Assembly (NCBI GenBank): GCA_030549335.1
Contig: CM060192.1
Location: 22,138,157 to 22,202,156 of the forward strand
Direction of reading: 5' to 3'
Length of the DNA: 64,000 bases
DNA from: Pontederia crassipes
Lineage: Eukaryota > Streptophyta > Magnoliopsida > Commelinales > Pontederiaceae
The notes below the pieces were generated by a model. The model was not told the origin of the DNA. It ran no database searches and saw only the letters and a program-made list of their open reading frames with translations. Position numbers and translations under genes: made by a program. Of the stretch, positions 2,470 through 64,000 are shown piece by piece. Each line of letters begins with the position of its first letter. The first letter of the stretch is position 1.

Positions 2470-4506
2470 TTGTAGGATTTCTTAACCAATCCTAAGTGCA
2501 AATCAAAGCCTCAATGATGGACGGAAGCACGCTACTCCGAAATGCATCAAGAAATCGACCCATTGTGCTAAACGCACTCTCAGATGACACTAAAGACACA
2601 TGAATAGTCAATATATCTCTTGCCATATGAGAAAGAACATAACATTTTGAAGATTTTGCTTTCCACCACTTTAAGATATCAAATTCATCGATATTTTCCT
2701 CCACATCGTCCTCGATGTACCTATCTAATTCACTCTTTTTACTTCTCCTTTGTTTCCTTCTGACTTTCAATATGAATTCATCCTCTCAATCAACATCATT
2801 TTTACAAGCATTAGATGTTGAGTCTATCATGGAGGTTAAGCAACTAGAATAATTCCTATTAAGAGGTATTAAAATTTTGTATTCCTCAAACAATAGGTGG
2901 ATGTAAGTTCTTAATTTTTCTAGCATTTCCTTGCTTCTACTTCCATTATACATTCGAGTAAAACAAAGCTCAATATATTTCAATTTGTAGCATGAATCTA
3001 AGAAAACTGCAATAAATAATAAATAACTCAGCATTTTATCATCATCCCAATATTCATCAAATTTTAATTGCATTGCCGCCGTCATTGCTTGTAGCACTGA
3101 GTCATCAATTTGTCCCCATCTTTTCAATTGCTTTTGAATATCAATGAAGTTATGAAAGAAACAATTTGAAGTAACATGTAATGATCTTGAAAATGAGAGT
3201 GTGGCATCATAAAAAACCTTCAAAAAGTGCGCAAATACTCGAACACGAATTCAATCTTCACTTGTAGGAATTGCTTTTTTAGCATCCTTAAAATATAATA
3301 TGCAAGACCCATCATGATTAAGTCTTTTAAATGCCTTTTCAAACTTTTTAGCAACTTCTAACATTAACTAAGTGGAGTTCCACCTTGTAGCTACATTCAT
3401 GAGCACCTTCCTCTTGCAATTTATATTTGACATTTCAACGCACCTATTAAAAGACGTAAATCTACTAGGAGAATATTTAACATACTTGCATGTAACTCTA
3501 ACTCTTTTAATAGATGCATCAATTATATTCATTCCTTCATGAACAATTAAATTTAATATATGGACAGCATATCCCATATGTGTCATCTCTCTATCTAGAA
3601 ATGTAGAACTGCCCTAATCGCTCATGCTATCAACCAAATAAACAATAGCTGGCCTATTGAAATTTGCATTATTCACTGTGACACGACCTATTTTCAAGAT
3701 CCCACAATTCTTCATGCACGTTTCCAATGGTATTGCCTTTGTGATCGGCAATTAAGTCAAAACTTAGTATCTTATTATACAATTCCCACATCATCTATGT
3801 AATGGGCAGTAATACACATATAATTTGTATTCTGAATTGAAGTCCAAATATTTGTTGTTAAAGAAATCATTTGACGGTTCTCAAAAAATATATTTTTCAA
3901 TTTATGTTTCTCAGGCATAAACAATTGCATAATATCTCTGGCAGCATTGATACAAGAAGGAAGTTGAAGCCTTGGTTGACATTCAGCTATGAATTCTCTA
4001 AAACCTTGATTTTCAACAAACTTGAATGCAAGTTTATCAACAACAAGCATTTTGGTAAGTGTTAATCTATGCCTTTCTTGATTAAAATAAACTAATTTCA
4101 TAGTAATGAAAGTGTTAGGATCATCCTTACTTTGCTTGCCAATAGCAATGATTTTTTGCTTCTTATCAAGGCCTCTTTCTGAATTTTTGTCATTAAGCTT
4201 TATATGCTTTAATAGATTTGATGTTCCGTGATTAGAAGTATTGCAAGCATAAGACTTATGACAATAATTACAAATGGCTCTATCTTTTTCTCTTTTAAAA
4301 TGCGCCCAAGCATTAAAAGAAGGTCTCGATGGTTTTCTTTTAAGTACCTCTTGTTGTTTTTCTGAAGTAACCTCCTCTGGTGGTTGAGCTTCAAGTGATG
4401 ATTGTTGATCATGTACTTGTTGTAAATCATTATAAGAAGCTCCACATAAATTTGTCAGAGTAGGTGCACTTCCAATATGGGTTCCACTTGTATTTTGGGT
4501 CGTCAT
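2470..4506 (-). mobile_element. Decayed hAT transposase gene (BED zinc finger, RICESLEEPER-like)
   Basis: The reading runs on the minus strand. A start ATG at 4506 opens an N-terminal part with a BED-type zinc finger: Trp in FNAWAHF, then Cys-x2-Cys in CNYCHKSY and a distal His in NLLKHIK. Middle blocks at 3368-3586 and 2786-3223 carry the hAT core, with phrases such as NVATRWNST. The C-terminal block at 2492-2770 is the hAT dimerisation domain, with the hallmarks ILKWWK, LSHMARDIL and SSESAFSTMGR. The reading is interrupted between blocks. The last block stops at ALICT, where family members usually continue QDWL, and DWL is still readable after the stop (about 2480-2491), so Gln probably became a stop. 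This is a non-functional relic. A domesticated gene is unlikely given the breaks. Confidence 0.88.
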
Positions 4507-4596
4507 TCTTATTATCCTATAAAAAGAAGAAATTAGAAAACTATAAACAATTTGTTCTAATAAGTTAATAATATACATTTCACATATACATAGCAT

Positions 4597-10669: not shown

Positions 10670-11580
10670 AGACCAAATGGGTCGGGCATGCATAATTAAA
10701 TTGATTGATTAATTTGAATTGTATTTAATTGAAGTGAAATTTATTTACGAGGAATAATATGATTGATATAATAAAAAAAAATAGATGTGATTGATAAATT
10801 TTTTATGAATTTTAAATTTAAAATAATTATTATAATTATGAAGTATAATTTTATTATTAATTGAAATAAAATTATAAAATAATTTTTTTATAGAAAAATC
10901 TTGTTAAAAAATATATTATTTAAATATAAAAAATCATTTTTTAAAAAAATTAATTATATTTAGTAAAATATTTAATTTTTAGTAAAAAAGTAATAAATAG
11001 TATTATATTAATTTATTATTATGATTTTTTATATTTATTAAATAATTTATTTTATGAAGCCATTGTGTGAGAGAAAAAAAAGAAAAAAGAAAAAAAATTA
11101 AAAATGACTAACGTGTCCTGTCAAATAAAAAAAAAAAAGATAACCTCCGATTTCAATACATTTATTTTCACTTCCAAATTGAATTTCGAAATGGTCTTTT
11201 GACAGAACCGAACGAAACTAGGTCGTATCACATTGTTCTTCTCGCTCCGAAATCAAATTCCGAAATGATATTTGAAAAAACCGAATGGGGCGCGATTGGT
11301 TCCACAAACAAACGACTCTTGGTGAGGAAGTTCAAATAGACCGCTCGACATTACATATAATAAAATAACAGAGGCAAAGTTATATGCTTGTACCAAGGTG
11401 ACGACGTACATAATTTTTCCAGCGTGCACAGATACCGCAATAAATGAAGGAATACAGCACAAGGTCACACTTAATTATTAGACATCAAAGATCCGGTCCT
11501 CAACATGCTCAACTCATTCAACATAATATATCATATGCAACTTAATTCAAAGATCATGCATCAGCCGAAAGGAAGGCAAT
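10670..11580. other. AT-rich intergenic DNA downstream of the phytoglobin gene
   Basis: No coding region. The segment next to 11580 will contain the 3' untranslated region of the minus-strand phytoglobin gene, but I cannot fix the cleavage site. Confidence 0.5.
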
Positions 11581-17629: not shown

Positions 17630-18330
17630 TTTTTACGGCTCCCTTTCTGTCGCAAGTTCAGACGGTTCGGACCATCGGTAATAATAATTAAATAGTATAA
17701 TCTTATATATCATAATATAATATAATTCGTATTTTATTATTATAATTACCGACAGTTTCGTCCGTCGCAAGTTCAAACGATCCGGATCATCGGTAATCGT
17801 AAAAATAATGAAATATTATAATCTTATATATCATAATATATAATACAATTAGTATTTTATTATTATAATTATCGACAGTTCTGACCGTCGCAAGTTCAAA
17901 CAGTTCAGACTGTCGATAATCGTAAAAATAATTAAATATTATAATATTATATCATAATATATAATGATAATTAGTATTTTATTATTATAATTATCGACAG
18001 TTCTGACCGTCGCAAGTTCAAGCAGTCCGGACCATCGATAATCGTAAAAATAATTAAATATTATAATCTTATATATCATAATATATAATATAATTAGTAT
18101 TTTATTATTATAATTACTAACACTTCGGACCGTCGCAAGTTCAGACGGTCCGGACCGTCGGTAATCATAATAAAAAATAAATATTATAATCTTATATATT
18201 ATGATATATATTATAAGTAGTATTTTATTATTATAATTATTGATAGTTTTGGACCGTCGATAATTGAAAAATTAATTAAATATTATAACCATATATATCA
18301 TAATATATATATTAATATTTTCGATAGTTA
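17630..18330 (+). repeat. ~120-bp tandem repeat array inside the CACTA element
   Basis: About six units begin at roughly 17635, 17751, 17874, 17995, 18118 and 18242, giving a period of 116-124 bp. Each unit pairs a GC-rich motif (CGACAGTT...CCGTCGCAAGTTCA..., then a second GGTCCGGACC-like half) with an AT-rich spacer ending in TATTTTATTATTATAATT. The GC part of a unit can fold back on itself, since CCGTC is followed by a GACGG-like complement. Confidence 0.9.
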
Positions 18331-29099: not shown

Positions 29100-31596
29100 G
29101 AAAAGTTCTCCCAGCTTGAGTTAGCGTTTTATAGACAACACAATCCAATACAGTACTGTTTCAGAGTGGATTTTTTTTTTCTCTTTTTGTATTCCTTTTT
29201 AAGAAATGGTATGACATGGTAAAAAATTAGTGGAACTTTTCCTGGAAGTCATGGAATGGGCGAAGTCAGTAACTACGAAACATCGGCTCAGACGATCACG
29301 CCACCTTTTACTGTGTGCTAATTGAAAGGGGCACAGAACTATAAGCTTAATACTCTTTTTGCCAGAACTTACATGTTCAAATATTTATTTTCTCGTTTCA
29401 TGATAGCATGTATTCAAGAATGTTACTACTGTGGAGTACTGCTACCCATGTTTGGTTTTCCTCACCTCCATGTTTCATAATGCACAAAGGAACAAATAAG
29501 AGATTGCATGGATTGTTAACATTTTTACTGTCAGGATTCAGGAAATAGTATATTGTGGTCATGTAAGAATGAAGAGGTTAGTAATAGAAATTTTTTATTC
29601 TTTGTTTGAAATTGATGGGTGCCGATGTAGAGGCCAGGGAGTTTGCTGTTTCTATGAAAAGGTTTGCAGTAATTCAAATTTGTGATACGAACCTTCTGAA
29701 AATTTGTGCACTAATTCAAATTTGTGGTAGAAACATTCTACATATTGACAAGGCTGCAACTGTTTCTTCGAGTTTAATCAGAAATGGTTTATTGGATGAG
29801 AGCAATGGGATTGGTCTGTGTGTCTACTGAAGGATTAATTAGCATTTTTAAGGCTTTAAGCAACGTTTCCAAGCAAAACAGGACAAAAAGGGACTTGTCC
29901 AGGGAATGTCCAAGTGCCTTTTGGTTGTGTAAAGCAAAGTTAAACAAACCCTCAAAAGGGACGAAAGTGAAGGATAAAGGTGGTGGTGGAATTGGGTAGT
30001 TCAAGGAGAACTGGTTCCATTTGGTGTTTCCTCTTGTTTAGGACTCGATGATTCTTCAAAAGAGAGCTCAAGATACCAATATGTTGTCCTCAATTCTGCA
30101 CTGGTTAATGCTTGTCAACAGAATCAAGTTTAACTAGTGATCTACGTAGGTTTTGGCCTCTTGCAGAGCCAATGCACAAGAGGAAAAGAGGGGTAAACAA
30201 AGTGGTCACGGCAAAAAGCTTCCTTTTTCCTAATGCCTATTTGAAGTGGGCACCAAGAGAAACACAAAAGTTTTCTGTCACCACTTGAGTCTGTAGCTTT
30301 GCACTGTTGCGGAGTATTCTTATTCAAAGCAAGCCAAGCCAGATTACAATAATGGCTGCCTCTTGCCATGTTCAACATGGAAACTTTGGTCCCCTCTAAT
30401 CCTTTCGTTTTACACATGGAGCAGGGAAACTGCAACTTCTGGTGGCACTCGTTCTGTCTTTTTCCTTGTCTTCAGCAAAAAATCAGCAGAGAACTGATTC
30501 ACTGAACTGCCTTCGAATATTAAGGTCACGACCATGGTCATAAGATCAACTCACTATCATATTACCAAATTTTCGCAGATTTCAAATTTGCAGGACGTGC
30601 GCATTTCTGTCAGGGATCACGCAAACAGGATTCTCTGAGGAAATTACATGTCGATGAGACGAGGGACAAAACCATCCGATCATTTGGAACTCTTTGTTTC
30701 GTAGGCGTCAAATCATATTGTATTTGCAACGCCTCAATGCACCGACAGTTGCTTCCTCTACATTCATCATTTCTTTATTAGAATCTACAAGTTAAAAAAA
30801 TCTTTACAACGTTTTCAAGCTTTTCGAACATCGAGGCTTGCACTAAACAGCAAGCAATAATATCTGACCTGTGCCTTGGTCCAAGTACTGTTGAGTTGCC
30901 ATGGGGTTCAATTTGTTGCCTGACGCCAAGGGCCTCTAATTAAATCTCGTGGCGTTGGCATCACGTAGCTCACTAAAATATAAGGACTTGCACTATGCTA
31001 GAAGTGCCGTTTTATGTAAGTACCTGCCATACATATGATAAAGTATTAACCAATCAACAACTCAAGAACACAAGCAAGCACAGTAGTGTCTTCATGTCAC
31101 AAAGGATTGCGCTCAATCAATAAAAAAAAAAGATGTTAACTAATGTCGAATTATATGGATATAAGCAAAACCAACTTTGAAGCCAGTCTTTTATGATTGA
31201 GATCCACAAAGATGCCTGGCGCTTTGTAGCTTCCTGTTTCTACAGACAATAAGGTCAAAACCCTGCAGAGTCTAGACCTATCTCACTTCCAAGTTCATGA
31301 CAAATATTTAAAGCTAACATGTGTCCGTTTTTTAATATTTGCCACCACTCGAATCGTCACCACTATTCTGTCACTATTCTGGAGTAGGTTTCCCTCAAAA
31401 CATGCATAATTAATCATCAAGACAAGGCCTCATCATAAATGACATGAAAGTTAGATGGTGGGTATTGTGATTCAAATAGGTAATTAACGAGATAGAAATT
31501 CTCATGACCACGTTCAAACAAAGAGTAAACCATTATGGTGGAAATATTGAAGAAAGAGGGCCCTTTAACTTTAGATAGCGATGATTCATGATTTGC
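29100..31596. other. Intergenic DNA upstream of the MIP1-like gene
   Basis: Probably contains the 5' leader and promoter of the minus-strand gene near 28860-29200. Isolated frames at 29606-29999 and 30142-30435 match no known protein and lack splice context. No transposon ends were recognised. Confidence 0.4.
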
Positions 31597-32829: not shown

Positions 32830-35800
32830 ATAAATAAGCCTCTTCCAAATGGGACCGTCGTCGGGGGGGGGGGGGGGGCCCTCCCTCTTTTGTTCGTACG
32901 CCAACAGCACAGGTAATTGGATAATACTCAAATTCCTCTAAGTTCACGTGGACGAATCTGATGTGAGAAATAAGGGGTCCTGAAGTATTCATCAACTCCA
33001 ACATGGTTAACATCCCCCCTTGAGCCCGAGGAGGTCGGGGATCGAGACGGAGCTTGCTTCGCATGAACTGAAATTGGTGACCGGTTATTGCTTTTGTCAT
33101 GGGATCCACAACTTGATCTTTAGTAGAGATGTAGCGAACTTGCAGTCGATGTGCAACAACTTCTTCCCTAACAAAGTGAAAATCAACTTCCATGTGTTTA
33201 GTACGCGCGTGGAAGATTGGATTGGCTGTGAGGTACATTGCACCAATATTATCACATCATAGAAGTGGCAATGGCAGAAGAGGATAACCGAGCTCTTGGT
33301 GTAGGGTGCGAAGCCAAATAAGCTCCGTAGTTGCATAAGCCGAAGCTTTGTACTCAAATTCAGTTGAAGACTTGGAAATAGTGCGCGGCTCTTTGCTGAT
33401 CATGAGATGAGATTAGTGTCGCGGTACATGGCATAATTACCGACAGACTTCCGATCATGTGGACTGCCAGAGCATGAGAGAAGGCTTGTAGTTGCAGGGA
33501 GGTAGATTTAGTTATGTAGATACACAAAGCATGGGTGCCACCCAGATAACATATAATGTGTTTAACAGCTTGCTAATGGTTAAGTGTAGATTGATGTATG
33601 AACTGGCTAACATGATTAACAACAAAGATAATGTCAGACCTAGTAATGAATAAGTATTGGAGAGCATCAACAGTTTGGCGGTAGAGAAGAGCATTCTCAC
33701 AGGGTTGTCCATCGAGTATGAGTTTGGTCTTGGCTGAGAGAGAAGTTTTGACAGGTTTGGCTCCAAGCATGTTAGCTCGTTTTAGTATGGAAAGGATGTA
33801 ATATTGTTATGTGAGAGCAAGACCACATGAGGTGTGAAACAGCTCGATGCCTAAGAAGGAGTGGAGTGCGCCAAGATCATGAATTGCAAATCGTTGGGCA
33901 AGATAATTCTTTACGCAATTGAGCAGGCGATATCAAGAACCATTTACAATGATGTCATCAACATAAATAAGAACAAACACAATCTCGGTAGACTGAAGGA
34001 AGATAAACAATGAAGTATCAGTGGTAGAACTTTTGAAACCAAATTGAAGTAACTCTTGTGCCAGGGTTTGAAACCAAGCACGTGGTGCTTGCTTGAGACC
34101 ATAAATGGCCTTGTGTAATTTGCATACATGAAGCATATGTGCAGCATCAACGAAGCTTGGAGGGTGGGACATGTAGACTGTTTCGGAGAGATGCCCATCT
34201 AAGAATGCATTACTTACATCTAAATGATGTAAAGGCCAATTGTGGGAAACTGCAAGCAACATGACCAATCTAATTGTTGTAGGCTTGATAATAGGACTGT
34301 CAAGTGTCGGTGTAGTTAATTCCAGGGGCTTGGTGGAAACCTTTAGCGATGAGACGTGACGAGCCTTGTGTCGATCAAATGCATCAGCATGAAGCTTGGT
34401 TTGATAGATCCAATGGCAGCCCATAACATTCATTTGTGGTGTGCGCAGAACAAGAGTCCAAATACCATTTCGGAGCAGAGCATTAAATTCATCAGCCATA
34501 GCTTGGCGCCAGACAGGAGAGGTAGCCGCTTTCAGGTTGGAGTGGTGATAGGAAGTTGGGATGCTGAGAGGAGGGCTTTGAGGCCTGCTAGACAATGATA
34601 CTCAGGACAAGGACGGGAGCAAAAAATCCACGGAGCAATTTGGTGATGAGGTAAATTCGAAGCAGGTTGAGGTTGCGGGGGTGGGAGACATTTGAGGAGA
34701 TGGGTTCAGAGGGAGGTGTAAGAGGGGCAGAAATATGTGTATAGAGATAAGGTTATGGGAGTGGAATGTTGGAGGATGTCGGCGAGATAACAGTAGTAAA
34801 AGGAAAAATGGTTTCAATGAAACAGACATGTCAGGCAACATAGGTTTTGCTTGTGGATGGATGATAACAACGGAAGCCAATAGTATTAGTAAGATAGCCG
34901 ATAAATACACATGGAATGGAATGGACATTGTATTTGTGGCGATTGTAAGCTCGAATATGAGGATAAACTATTGAACCAAATATACGCAAATGCTTGTAGG
35001 TGGAATGTTTTTTATGTAGGCGGTGGTAAGGGGTGTCGTGGGCATGATATTAATGAGGTAGACCAATGTTTCAATTGCATAATGCCAAAACCTATGGGGG
35101 TCGGAGGCATGTGTGAGCAACGTAAGGGTAGTCTCGACAACATGCCGTATTTTTTGCTCAACAAGGCCATTCTGCTGGTGTGTGTGGGCACATAGTAAGT
35201 TGATGGGCAATGTCGTGCGTAGCTAAGGACGTAAGGCAAGAAACTCGCCACCTCGGTTAGTTTGTAGATTTTTTTATTTTGGTACCAAACTGACATTCTT
35301 CGAGTTTATGAAAAATAGGAAAAATTTTTGCAACATCAGATTTATTAAGGGTACATCTAGGAATAGCGACTAAAGTCATCAACAATTATTAGAAAATAAG
35401 AGTGGCATGATGATGACTGAGCTGGTCCATACATCAGCAAAGAGAAGCTCTAATGGTGAGGACCTCTTTGAATGCAAGAGGGGTGACCATCCGTTGAAGT
35501 CGTAGAAGACAATCATTGACGACGAAGGATGGTTGTGAAAATGTGGTGATGAGGATGACTCAGGCAAGCATTCCATAATGCTAAAGATGTAGAAGCAGCG
35601 AGGAAAGTAGGCGCAACAATAGTCGGGAGGGAAAGATGGTATAAACCATCTTTAATTTGGTCGTAAAGGAGCTGTCAGTGTGTGGCCGGATCCTTAACAA
35701 CAAAGGAGGAGGTGTGAAATTAAAAAATGCAGTTATTATCATATGCAAATTGATGTACAGAAAGAAGATTGCGATTTATTTATGGAACATGCAAAATATT

Positions 35801-43084: not shown

Positions 43085-43230
43085 TGAATTAAATTAAAAA
43101 TCAGGATTTTATTAAAAAATAAGTTGTGACACAATAAATTAATATTAATTTTGGCTCAAATTTTCTTTTATATTTAATTAATGTTATAATTAATGTAAAT
43201 AATATCTTAATATGATCTTAATATAAATAT
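41700..43230. other. AT-rich intergenic DNA with (TA)n at 43053-43079
   Basis: No gene supported. A phrase at about 42245-42275 (GGCCCTTGTTGGCTAAAA) resembles a MITE end, but no partner end was found. Confidence 0.4.
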
Positions 43231-43751
43231 GAGTTATTTCTATTAACCTCTCATAAACTATCGTGATTTTTCGCATCTAACCTAACTATGAACTCATTTT
43301 TTGTATCTCTAACCTATCACGATTTTTTTCACTTTAATCCTTCCGTCTACTTCTGTTACATTTTATGTTACTTTTGATTTTTCTCATTTATGAAAAAACT
43401 AAATTACCCCTCCTTCATAACACATCAAATAATAAATATAAAAAGATAAAAAAATTAGGAGGAGGGTAATTTAGTCTTTCTCATAAATGATAATTCTTTT
43501 TACCACTTTAATCCTTCCAATGATTTTTTTATTTTTTATATTTATTATTTCATATTTTTCTAAGGGGAGGGGTAATTTAGTCTTTTCATAAAATGGAAAA
43601 AAGTAAAAATAATGAAAAATGTAACAGAAGTGAACGGGAGGACTAAAGTAAAAAAATCGTGATAGTTTAAGGAACTAAAATAATAAGTTCACAGTTTGAG
43701 GTTAAATGTAAAAAATCGTGATAATTTAGGAAAGGTTTATCGAAATAATCC
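43231..43751. mobile_element. Second member of the Mutator-like foldback family
   Basis: The ends read GAGTTATTTCTATTAACC at the left and, inward from the right, GGATTATTTCGATAAACC. Both continue into CTATCGTGATTTTT and a CTAACCT-like phrase, as in the element at 1449-2184 (GGGTTATTT...CTATCGCGA). The arms cover most of the length and the centre is AT-rich, with no GC insert. The 9-bp flanks do not match clearly, so it is older than the 1.4-kb copy. Confidence 0.75.
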
Positions 43752-44724
43752 TAAATTATATTATGCATAAATTTTTAAAAATATTTTAAATTATTAAAAT
43801 TCCATAGTAATACAACAATATATAAGTATACGCAAGGTTTACTTAATTAATGATTGAAATTTTAAATTTCATTGTAATATAATACTAAGTAAATTAGAAT
43901 AATATTTATTATCATTATATCAACATAATTTATTTTATAATTTTTATGACAATTATTATTAATAAATGAACTTTTTACTTTACTGTAATATACTACATAT
44001 AATATATATACTTTTTTATTAATATTTTTTTGTCTTTTTTAGATAATTTATTAATAAAAAAAGTAATTATATATAATATTATTAAAGTAATTAGTTATAT
44101 AGTATATATCTATATTAATAAATAATTACATAGGTCTAAAAGTAGACATATATGATGTTAAAATAAAAAAATAGCATGCCCTATCAATAACAAACTGAGT
44201 TCTTGTTATAAATAACAATTGATTACGTTAAACAATGTGACGTTTGACAAACTCGTCGTTAGAATTCGGGATAGGAATCAAGGCTCACATGACCGTGGTC
44301 CCATCTCTTGATTCCACCCTTTTGAGGAAATGTAGCGGTTTTCACCTTTTTTTTATTGATGTGATAATTCCTTTTTTAATTGATCTATTAAATATAAAAT
44401 ATTCATATAAAAAAATTAATTTAATATTAGGTATTACTTGTTCTTCCATTAAAAAAAATAATATTTCATTTAATATAAATTATTTTAAAAATGATTTTCA
44501 TATTTAGATAATATAGTTTTCAACAAATTCTATAATAAAAAATTAACTTATACGATTATTGTTATTAATTAATAAACTTAAATTCTATATTTATAATACC
44601 TATTTTTTCAATCAAACACCTATTAAATTAATCTATCACATCTAATTTTTCATATCTTGATTTGGATGATAGATGTGTTTGGATGAAAAATCATGTGTTT
44701 GGATGAAAAGTCAATTACATATCG
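43752..44724. mobile_element. AT-rich DNA with probable MITE debris
   Basis: A stretch at about 44590-44660 (ATCAAACACCTATTAAATTA and on) is related to one at about 46066-46135 (TTCAAACACTCATTAAAATT and on). Each lies at the end of an AT-rich segment beginning with a GTTTGA-like phrase (44240 and 45631). These look like two copies of one MITE family whose limits I cannot fix. Confidence 0.4.
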
Positions 44725-45552
44725 TTCTTCAATTTTGACTCAATATCCCAATTGTCCCACAACTTTAATTTGTAGTTATATTATCTTCGAACTTTGCTTT
44801 TCTTGCACGTCTCATCCTTATAATCGACAATAATCAGTTCCCTTATTATAATGTTGAGGTGACACAATAAAAATTAATAAAATATAATAAAAATAATATT
44901 AAAAAATAGGGTTGGTGCCTCCTTTTTCTCCCTCGCTGGTGTCGTGGATGTGAAGTTGACGCCGATGCACTGCAGGTGGATGATGCCGCTCACGTAGCCC
45001 ATAATTCTTCGCAGGAGCAACACCACCCAACGGTTGTAAAGCACCATCGTGACCATCTGAAAGATGACCAGGATCAAGAATAGGGGACATATGGATCTTC
45101 CCCAGCCATGTGTTCATGGTACTCCCTTGCTGCACCGTGAATGTTAGCAAAAGCGCGTTGGGCGTGCTTCCGACGACGAAGCTTATCAAGAGGGGAAGCA
45201 TCCTGACGACAATCTTTGTCTCCTCCACTTGGGTAATGGAGCACATCGATGAAGGTCGAGTGTCTCCAACTAAAATGAAAGCTCAATCTAAGAATGCAAT
45301 GAGAACGCACAAGGGATAGTGTCATGCCAAAGAGGAGAGGGGAAGGAAGGGGTGGCCCTTTTTATTTTTAATAGTATTTTTATTAATTGCTATTGTGTCA
45401 TATCAGCATTGCAAATGAGAATTGGTTATTGCCGATTAGGAGGACGGAGTGTGCAAGAAAAATAAAGTTCGAGAATAATCTAATTACAAATTAAAATTGA
45501 TGGACTGTCTAGTCACGACACTCAAAATTGAGAGGCGATTCGTGTAATTTAC
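44725..45552. mobile_element. Foldback (Pack-MULE-like) element carrying an NPF gene fragment
   Basis: Long imperfect inverted arms face each other. The left arm at about 44733-44895 and the right arm at about 45365-45540 (read in reverse) share TCAATTTTGA, TTTAATTTGTA, TCGAACTTT.TTTTTCTTGCAC, CGGCAATAA-like and GACACAATA phrases in the same order. The core at about 44910-45345 is GC-richer and unlike the arms: it is a captured piece of a host transporter gene. The ends fall within MITE-like DNA and a target duplication was not found, so the outer limits are approximate. Mutator-like is inferred from the long arms and the cargo. Confidence 0.78.
44910..45345 (-). pseudogene. Captured NPF (NRT1/PTR family) transporter fragment
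   Basis: On the minus strand one frame reads CSITQVEETKIVVRMLP and then TFTVQQGSTMNTWLG (about 45090-45246). A second frame reads MVTMVLYNRWVVLLLRRIMG and then SGIIHLQCIGV (about 44940-45060). These match in order the NPF segment CTVTQVEE-K-RMLP, FSVQQG-TMNT, LYDR-F-P-ARRITG and G-THLQRIGVG. Upstream, a third frame reads CVLIAFLDLAFI, like the FLDKAA region. The order is right but the frame changes within the fragment, and only about 140 residues of a ~580-residue protein are present. It is non-functional cargo inside the foldback element. I am sure of the family and unsure of the subfamily (NPF4-like wording). Confidence 0.85.
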
Positions 45553-45629
45553 TCCTTGATTTCTCATCATTATATTTTATTTCATCCAAACACACTTCGA
45601 ACTAATATGTCAATATAACTATCCATTAT

Positions 45630-46180
45630 ATCAGGGTAGTGTTTGATTGGGGAACAAGGCTGGAACCAGGCCCAACTAGTTCTCCAAACACCATGGGGCA
45701 TTCTATTCCCGAAGTGGAACCAAGCCGCCTAAAACTAGGATCATGGACTTTGATTTCAAGATTTCGGTTCCACCCAAAGCAATGTAGCGCCACACCCTTT
45801 TTTATGACATTTTGTTTTTCTATTTTTTTTTTCTTTTCTTATTTTCTTTCTCACACATTTCTATATAAAATATTTATAATAAATTATATACTATTATTAT
45901 TTACTATTAAATTAAAAAATAATATTTAATTAAATATATTATTAGAAATTATTTTTTCCTTTTAAATAACATATTTTAAACTAAATTTTCCATAAATTTT
46001 TTTAAATTTATACTTTTATTTTTATTAAGTAATAAATTACATTTTGTATTACAATACATATTTTTTTATTCAAACACTCATTAAAATTAATTCATCATAT
46101 GTATTTTTCCTATCACAACTCCTTGATTCTTCATTATTAAGTTCAACTCCATCCAAATACACCCCAAATTAATCTCAATT
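45630..46180. mobile_element. Probable MITE next to the foldback element
   Basis: The segment starts CAGGGTAGTGTTTGATTGGG and contains an inner GGAACAAGGCTGGAACCAGG phrase. It runs into AT-rich DNA ending in TTCAAACACTCATT and a CATCCAAATACACCCC phrase. The last phrase, reversed, resembles the GTGTGTTTGGATG near 45573-45590 that borders the foldback element. A MITE is likely; the limits are uncertain. Confidence 0.4.
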
Positions 46181-46892
46181 CAATTATTCACGGAGAACTT
46201 GAGAAAAACTAACGTTCTGTTTTCAAATGCAGTCCAAAAGAACAATGATTTCACAATCCAAACACAAGCAAGAACTACCAAAATTCAAGTTCTAATCTTT
46301 TTTTTTCTACTATTTAATGAAACTTGGACAAAATTCTAATCCAAATTTGTTAAACGTAGCCTTTTCATTTTTGTTACATTTGTAGCTATCGAGATGCATT
46401 CTATTATCACTTCCCCTCAAATTCATTGTTATGTAACTTAACTACATATTTCTTGGTTTAGGAAGGAAGTTTGCCTAATGCAACATTCTGAAAAAATATT
46501 GTTTGCGTTATATTAATACATACGCTCAGTTGCATAATCAATAGTGAAACCACAGCAATAGAGATTGAGATAGAGTGATAATTGACTTTTTTTCGTTTAT
46601 GTAAAATCTTAAATTTAATTTTTTTATAAATAATGAAAATTACTATGATTAGATACGTAAATTTTTATAAATATGGATTAGTTTGATGTCGTTTTTTAAA
46701 TATTGGAGGCCGACTATTTAAAAAAAATTAAAGTGAAACCACAATATGCACACTATTTATGATCACTGAGACAAACAAATGATGGAAAACAATGAGGAAG
46801 CTGCACATGATTTTTTTTTCCTCTGCTGTAACAAGTAAAGCATTTGAACTGCAAGAGATGAATGCTGAGCAGTTTATGTTGCCATTAATGGC
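46181..46892. other. AT-rich intergenic DNA
   Basis: No gene or complete element recognised. Confidence 0.45.
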
Positions 46893-63329: not shown

Positions 63330-64000
63330 TACCGATGGTTATGACCGTCGAAAACTAAGCAAATATTAATAATATATATATGAATATGATATTTAATTAT
63401 TTTTAAAATTACTGACGATCGAGACCGTCAAAAATTATTTAATTATAATAATAAAATACTACATATATATATAATTTATTTTTTAGGTTGCCGACGGCCC
63501 AAACCGTAAAAATTTTTGACGGTCGGGACTGTCGCTAATTAGATTAATATTTTTTTTATATTATACTAATTTTTCATTTACTGACGGTTAGAACCGACGG
63601 AACCGGCGAAAATTACGACGGTATAAACTGTCGCTAATTATATTAATAAATACTCCTTATATTATATTATTTTTTTATTTACCGACGGCTCGGACCGTCG
63701 GAATTTGCGATGGTTCGATATCCGTCGAAACTTTCGGCATTCCTAATCGTTGAAAAATAAAATAATAATAATTTATTATTTTTCATTTATCGACGGTCCG
63801 AACCGTCGAAAATTACGACGGTTGGATATCCGTAAAAAATTGTGACGTTCCTAATTGTCAAAAAATAAAATAATAATATAACAAATTTTATAATTTATTA
63901 TTTTTCATTTATCAATAGTTCGGACTGTTGGAAATTACGATGATTGGATATCCATCGAAATTTTCGACGTTTCTAATTGTTAAAAAATAAAATAATAATA
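63330..64000. repeat. Tandem GACGG/CCGTC array in the second CACTA copy
   Basis: Units start at about 63331, 63411, 63489, 63580, 63679, 63788 and 63910, with a period of 80-120 bp. Each has a GACGG.CCGAACCGTCG-like hairpin, often a second hairpin, and an AT-rich spacer. The array continues past the window. Confidence 0.8.

Follow-up and report, generated by a model that had tools for sequence, protein, structure and literature searches.

A fragment of an NPF (NRT1/PTR) transporter gene lies between two long inverted arms in the 64-kb window, that is, in the whole stretch of 64,000 nucleotides analysed here. Irrespective of the superfamily to which it belongs, the unit made up of the arms and the enclosed core is very probably the insertion of a TIR transposon with a captured NPF fragment. 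The unit is found inside an older repeat that is present in uninterrupted form at two other places of the window. Thus, the capture of a gene fragment and the corresponding empty site can be read within the same 64 kb, and the insertion is shown without recourse to a second genome. We interpret the element as a Pack-TYPE DNA transposon that is old and non-autonomous and most likely Mutator-like, the superfamily being not proven. The features of the element and its surroundings are compiled in Table 1.

Table 1. Coordinates of the element, its parts and the repeat into which it is inserted.
Feature	Position	Strand	Remarks
Proposed whole element	44664..45554	.	891 bp, provided that the 8-bp repeat CTTGATTT represents the target-site duplication
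Additional sequence beyond the left arm	44664..44709	+	no clear counterpart at the right end
Two 20-bp tandem units	44673-44692, 44693-44712		mostly inside 44664-44709
Left inverted arm	44710..44905	+	clear pairing 44754-44896; inner limit about 44905
GC-rich core	44936..45335	-	about 400 bp, between the arms
NPF (NRT1/PTR) fragment	44952..45258	-	one frame switch near 45080
115-aa ORF	44899..45246	-	begins in the NPF frame, departs halfway
Right inverted arm	45362..45553	-	clear pairing 45362-45505
Candidate target-site duplication CTTGATTT, left copy	44656..44663	+	exact match to 45555-45562
Candidate target-site duplication CTTGATTT, right copy	45555..45562	+	exact match to 44656-44663
Repeat M1, left part	44392..44656	+	74.2% to 45863-46114
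Repeat M1, right part	45551..45632	+	aligns to the continuation of M2 and M3
M2, uninterrupted relative (empty site)	45863..46190	+	3 bases between the M1-matching parts
M3, second uninterrupted relative	10689..11033	-	about 20 bases between the M1-matching parts

Results

Inverted arms

The inverted arms on which the original prediction was built are present as claimed. In a blastn comparison, 44754-44896 and the reverse complement of 45362-45505 were 77.9% identical over 145 columns (E 2.6e-25). In a looser gapped alignment the similarity continued outward past 44710 and 45553, to nearly 200 bp at lower similarity, which is close to the limits of 44725-45552 given earlier; inward, the alignment extended to about 44905 on the left and to 45362 on the right. 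The control was carried out with 44725-44850 and 45405-45552, a pair that excludes the AT-rich inner part of the arms. Its score of 82 was far above the highest values obtained from 500 dinucleotide shuffles (29) and from 2917 random places of the window (32). A 15-base match located farther out (44674-44688 with 45580-45594) was not counted as part of the element, because its right half falls in the flanking repeat. The 46 bp beyond the left arm are without a clear partner at the right end, and this counts against the transposon reading.

No second copy of the arms was found within the 64-kb window, in which only the AT-rich inner part gave matches. The search of the window for the end and arm motifs returned the opposite arm only, together with one match of a 15-base motif with three mismatches at 30639. 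A 22-base arm pattern gave no match in viral_contigs and a single match in genome_contigs, located in a Dyadobacter genome. Since a pattern with 20 fixed bases would be expected about 0.5 times when 257 billion bases are searched on two strands, assuming equal base frequencies, this match was taken as chance.

The window contains further repeats. Two more foldback elements, at 43219-43763 and 1447-2186, consist almost wholly of inverted repeat, with a self-complementarity of 76.8% and 80.6%, respectively. Their arms are mutually related (z 20 to 25 in all four comparisons), and kinship with the element described here was rejected, as the eight arm comparisons gave z values from -1.7 to 0.0 (100 shuffles each). 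Tandemly arrayed units of about 120 bp, the copies being 83-86% alike, occupy 17646-18259, and a direct repeat (offset about 100 bp, 73.4% alike) extends from 63528 to the window end at 64000.

NPF homology of the core

The core, the limits of which (44936-45335) were chosen by eye, so that 44906-44935 and 45336-45361 fall outside the arm and core labels, has a GC content of 50.2%; that of the flanks is 29.4% (44725-44935) and 35.0% (45336-45552), and that of the 64-kb window 35.6%. On the minus strand of the core, TQVEETKIVVRMLP and TVQQGSTMNT are read in one frame and YNRWVVLLLRRI and GIIHLQCIGV in a second one, and a single frame switch near 45080 separates the two NPF-like pieces. All four motifs quoted in the original prediction occur in NPF order, as had been stated; the "changing frames" in which they were said to lie are reduced to two frames and one switch.

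When the 115-aa ORF was compared with proteins, NRT1.1/NPF6.3 was found at E 0.0029, and both sequences listed up to E 10 were NRT1.1. The second piece alone had NPF2.10 as its sole match, with a weak E value of 0.17. A composite of the two frames reached E 9.4e-9 to NPF6.3 (residues 327-425) and E 3e-7 to NPF2.10 (residues 352-458). As this composite was assembled by eye, the frameshift-tolerant alignment of the raw core is the fairer control. Carried out with NPF6.3 and NPF2.10, the two proteins covered by the NPF comparison, it gave scores of 116 and 107, respectively; the best of 60 mononucleotide shuffles reached 37 and 41, and the opposite strand of the core scored 23 and 21. The remaining window was divided into 314 non-overlapping tiles of 400 bases, leaving aside 44801-45600 and 63601-64000, and aligned on both strands with NPF6.3 only; the maximum was 40, compared with 116 for the core. 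These values confirm that an NPF-like core is present, and no NPF donor gene was found in the 314 tiles.

The Pfam family PTR2 scored 20.9 bits with the first piece and 23.5 bits with the composite, both under the curated cut-off of 27 bits, as may be expected for a short broken piece; the second piece gave no PTR2 match in Pfam. No intact reading frame extends across the PTR2 domain, since the frame switch interrupts a stretch of only about 100 codons. Upstream of the aligned NPF part, IAFLD is encoded at 45300-45286 and is followed by an in-frame stop. This site lies outside all alignments made and resembles FLDKA, which we take to be conserved in NPF proteins.

Insertion into an older repeat

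The unit is flanked left and right by the two parts of a single older repeat, M1, which has two uninterrupted relatives in the window, M2 and M3. In addition to the match of its left part with M2 (Table 1), an identity of 74.4% was found between 44377-44650 and the minus strand of 10776-11049. On the right side, 45551-45606 and 46118-46173 are 75% identical, and 45551-45632 aligned with a score of 44 to M2 and of 36 to M3, the maximum at 3918 random places being 33. The match between M1 and M2 ends at 44656/46114 and restarts at 45551/46118, which leaves 894 bp in M1 versus 3 in M2. The match between M1 and M3 ends at 44650 and restarts at 45559 in M1, the corresponding parts being about 20 bases apart in M3. 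M2 and M3 could be joined in a single 350-column alignment (71.4%) that runs across the insertion point, and a three-way alignment was also made. Since M1 is interrupted and M2 and M3 are not, the arms and the NPF core arrived together as one insertion, and the empty-site comparison with two uninterrupted relatives thus documents the movement of the unit into a new site. The repeat itself is probably a MITE, AT-rich and dispersed; M1 and M2 are situated close together and in the same orientation.

Ends and candidate target-site duplication

The word CTTGATTT is the longest one common to the flanks 44650-44725 and 45546-45570. Addition of one base leftward gives 9 bp with one mismatch (TCTTGATTT and CCTTGATTT, 8 of 9 matching). 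As 9.8% of the 1805 flank pairs drawn at random from this AT-rich region shared 8 bp or more, the candidate duplication is a weak one. The left copy is separated from the left arm by 46 bases, which include most of the 20-bp tandem repeat. For a Pack-MULE, a target-site duplication of 9-11 bp with at most two mismatches, adjoining the TIR ends, was taken as the criterion. In view of the weak 8-bp duplication and the 46-base gap, the Mutator-like superfamily, which is favoured by the long arms, the size and the GC-rich cargo, is not proven.

Pfam scan of the window

On the whole, the window resembles plant DNA. Of the 30 ORFs listed for it, 10 were scanned with Pfam, and six of these matched a family, including a BTB-POZ ankyrin-like domain, a MIP1 leucine zipper, a ResB-like domain and a copia-type reverse transcriptase. 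The latter is a fragment (RVT_2) at 33933-34595 on the minus strand. Pfam also identified the RNase-H fold of a hAT-like transposase and a separate BED zinc finger at 2786-3223 and 3775-4596 (minus), respectively, which are perhaps pieces of one hAT element. No MULE transposase was detected in the 10 ORFs scanned, which is a thin test.

Predicted folding of the element

Folded as RNA, the element was more stable than its shuffles (z -15.4), none of 20 being as good. In the predicted minimum-energy fold, 149 pairs join arm to arm and 118 are internal to the core; arm and core are nowhere paired with each other, and four pairs connect the core to the inner left edge. The NPF core is thus predicted to lie in the loop and to pair almost only with itself.

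Discussion

The position of the unit within a repeat, the two other window copies of which are without it, and the lack of any other NPF-like stretch in the 314 tiles lend good support to the capture that had been proposed for this locus. The proposal named as its counterpart a decayed local gene, to be recognized by NPF sequence extending past the arms and by arms absent from other loci. NPF sequence past the arms was not seen, in favour of capture; with regard to the arms, none were found at other loci within the 64-kb window. If an NPF gene had decayed in place and the inverted arms were unrelated neighbouring repeats, the broken and old state of the NPF piece and the single pair of arms in the window would be accounted for. 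However, the flanks of the unit would then not be expected to form the halves of a single older repeat occurring without interruption at two other places, nor would NPF homology be expected to show only between the arms, without any other NPF-like stretch in the 314 tiles. We regard a decayed local NPF gene as very unlikely, and it is rejected by the empty-site comparison with M2 and M3. Within the reading as a TIR transposon, the Mutator label (Pack-MULE) is moderately probable. PMC3310237 gives 100-500 bp as the typical length of MULE TIRs and describes a tomato Pack-MULE of 944 bp and a tomato MULE TIR library built at 80% identity. The arms of just under 200 bp and the total length below 1 kb fit the first two values, and the arm identity of 77.9% is slightly under the third. 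TIRs within this range and a host gene fragment between them, in this case of NPF origin, are what is looked for in a Pack-MULE, and the core GC content fits the GC-rich MULE captures reported in Oryza (PMC4858842). Pack-MULE, the class originally named, accordingly remains the likeliest one with respect to arm length, size and GC-rich cargo, and stays not proven with respect to the weak target-site duplication. A gene-capturing element of another TIR superfamily (e.g. hAT), or a foldback element belonging to none of the standard superfamilies, would overlap with the preferred explanation and differ from it in superfamily only; we consider this rather unlikely. The cleanest direct repeat has 8 bp, the length given for hAT target-site duplications in PMC8903248, where Pack-TYPE elements are also reported from all main plant TIR superfamilies, and hAT transposase fragments are present inside the window (2786-3223). 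On the other hand, an arm length of nearly 200 bp is the usual case in MULEs (PMC3310237). The 8-bp repeat may also represent a decayed 9-bp repeat, as 8 of its 9 positions match. In addition, hAT TIRs are short, which was counted against the hAT reading.

A present function of the element, at the protein or at the RNA level, is improbable throughout. The 115-aa ORF might be regarded as a new chimeric protein made of captured NPF and element sequence, given that it is open from 44899 to 45246. Yet it departs from the NPF frame halfway, is without a match to any Pfam family at E 0.001 and spans only part of a membrane protein; such a protein is scarcely credible, and the ORF is probably not a gene. 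With regard to RNA, the arms had been thought capable of yielding transcripts that silence the parent NPF gene. The strong predicted folding of the transcript and a precedent in maize, where captured fragments are described as siRNA reservoirs acting on donor genes (PMC13317346), would agree with a working regulator of this kind, whose fold-back transcript would give rise to the small RNAs. In the minimum-energy fold, however, the stem is formed by arm with arm, no arm base is paired to the core, and the NPF sequence is in the loop, so that any small RNAs processed from the stem would correspond to the arms and not to an NPF gene; the old arms, 78% identical, would moreover form an imperfect stem. 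Silencing of the parent NPF gene by the inverted arms is therefore poorly supported, and a working regulator is very improbable. A different route would be that the element belongs to a family through which the same NPF fragment has reached several loci, and that small RNAs from the core damp a donor NPF gene. Their source would have to be antisense or secondary synthesis rather than the hairpin stem, and we consider such damping to be very improbable; if true, the damped donor transporter would mean that nitrate or hormone transport is affected.

We therefore return to the captured NPF fragment in an old TIR transposon, for which the following course may be suggested. A short non-autonomous DNA transposon with long inverted ends would have acquired about 300-400 bp of an NPF gene between these ends. 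The capture would have proceeded by DNA-level transduplication, with the donor gene presumably located elsewhere. A transposase supplied from elsewhere would then have mobilised the element in trans and moved it into the older dispersed repeat, and after insertion the element would have decayed. The frameshift and the arm identity of 78% fit such an old, unconstrained copy. We think that the element is inert, with neither a protein nor a regulatory function at present.

Gene capture by transposons is common in plants, and the element is a clear but ordinary example of it. The element class is well known; only the present copy, with its own cargo, is new. It adds one example of an NPF fragment as cargo and leaves the general view of such elements unchanged.

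Among known systems, the NPF transporters are represented by the core, which matches NPF6.3 and NPF2.10 over the residues given above. Unlike an NPF transporter gene, the core comprises about 100 codons with a frameshift and is not a gene. With Pack-hAT and Pack-CACTA elements, the element shares a gene fragment between inverted ends, and its 8-bp direct repeat would fit hAT; its arms, however, are far longer than the core TIRs of 8-13 nt that serve as input for searches of Pack-TYPE elements, Pack-hAT and Pack-CACTA among them (PMC8903248). From a Pack-MULE it differs in that the target-site duplication of 9-11 bp is not clean here and in that the arms are only 78% alike, whereas the long inverted ends, the small size, the host gene fragment inside, the GC-rich cargo and the interior in which no transposase was seen are all features that it has in common with Pack-MULEs.
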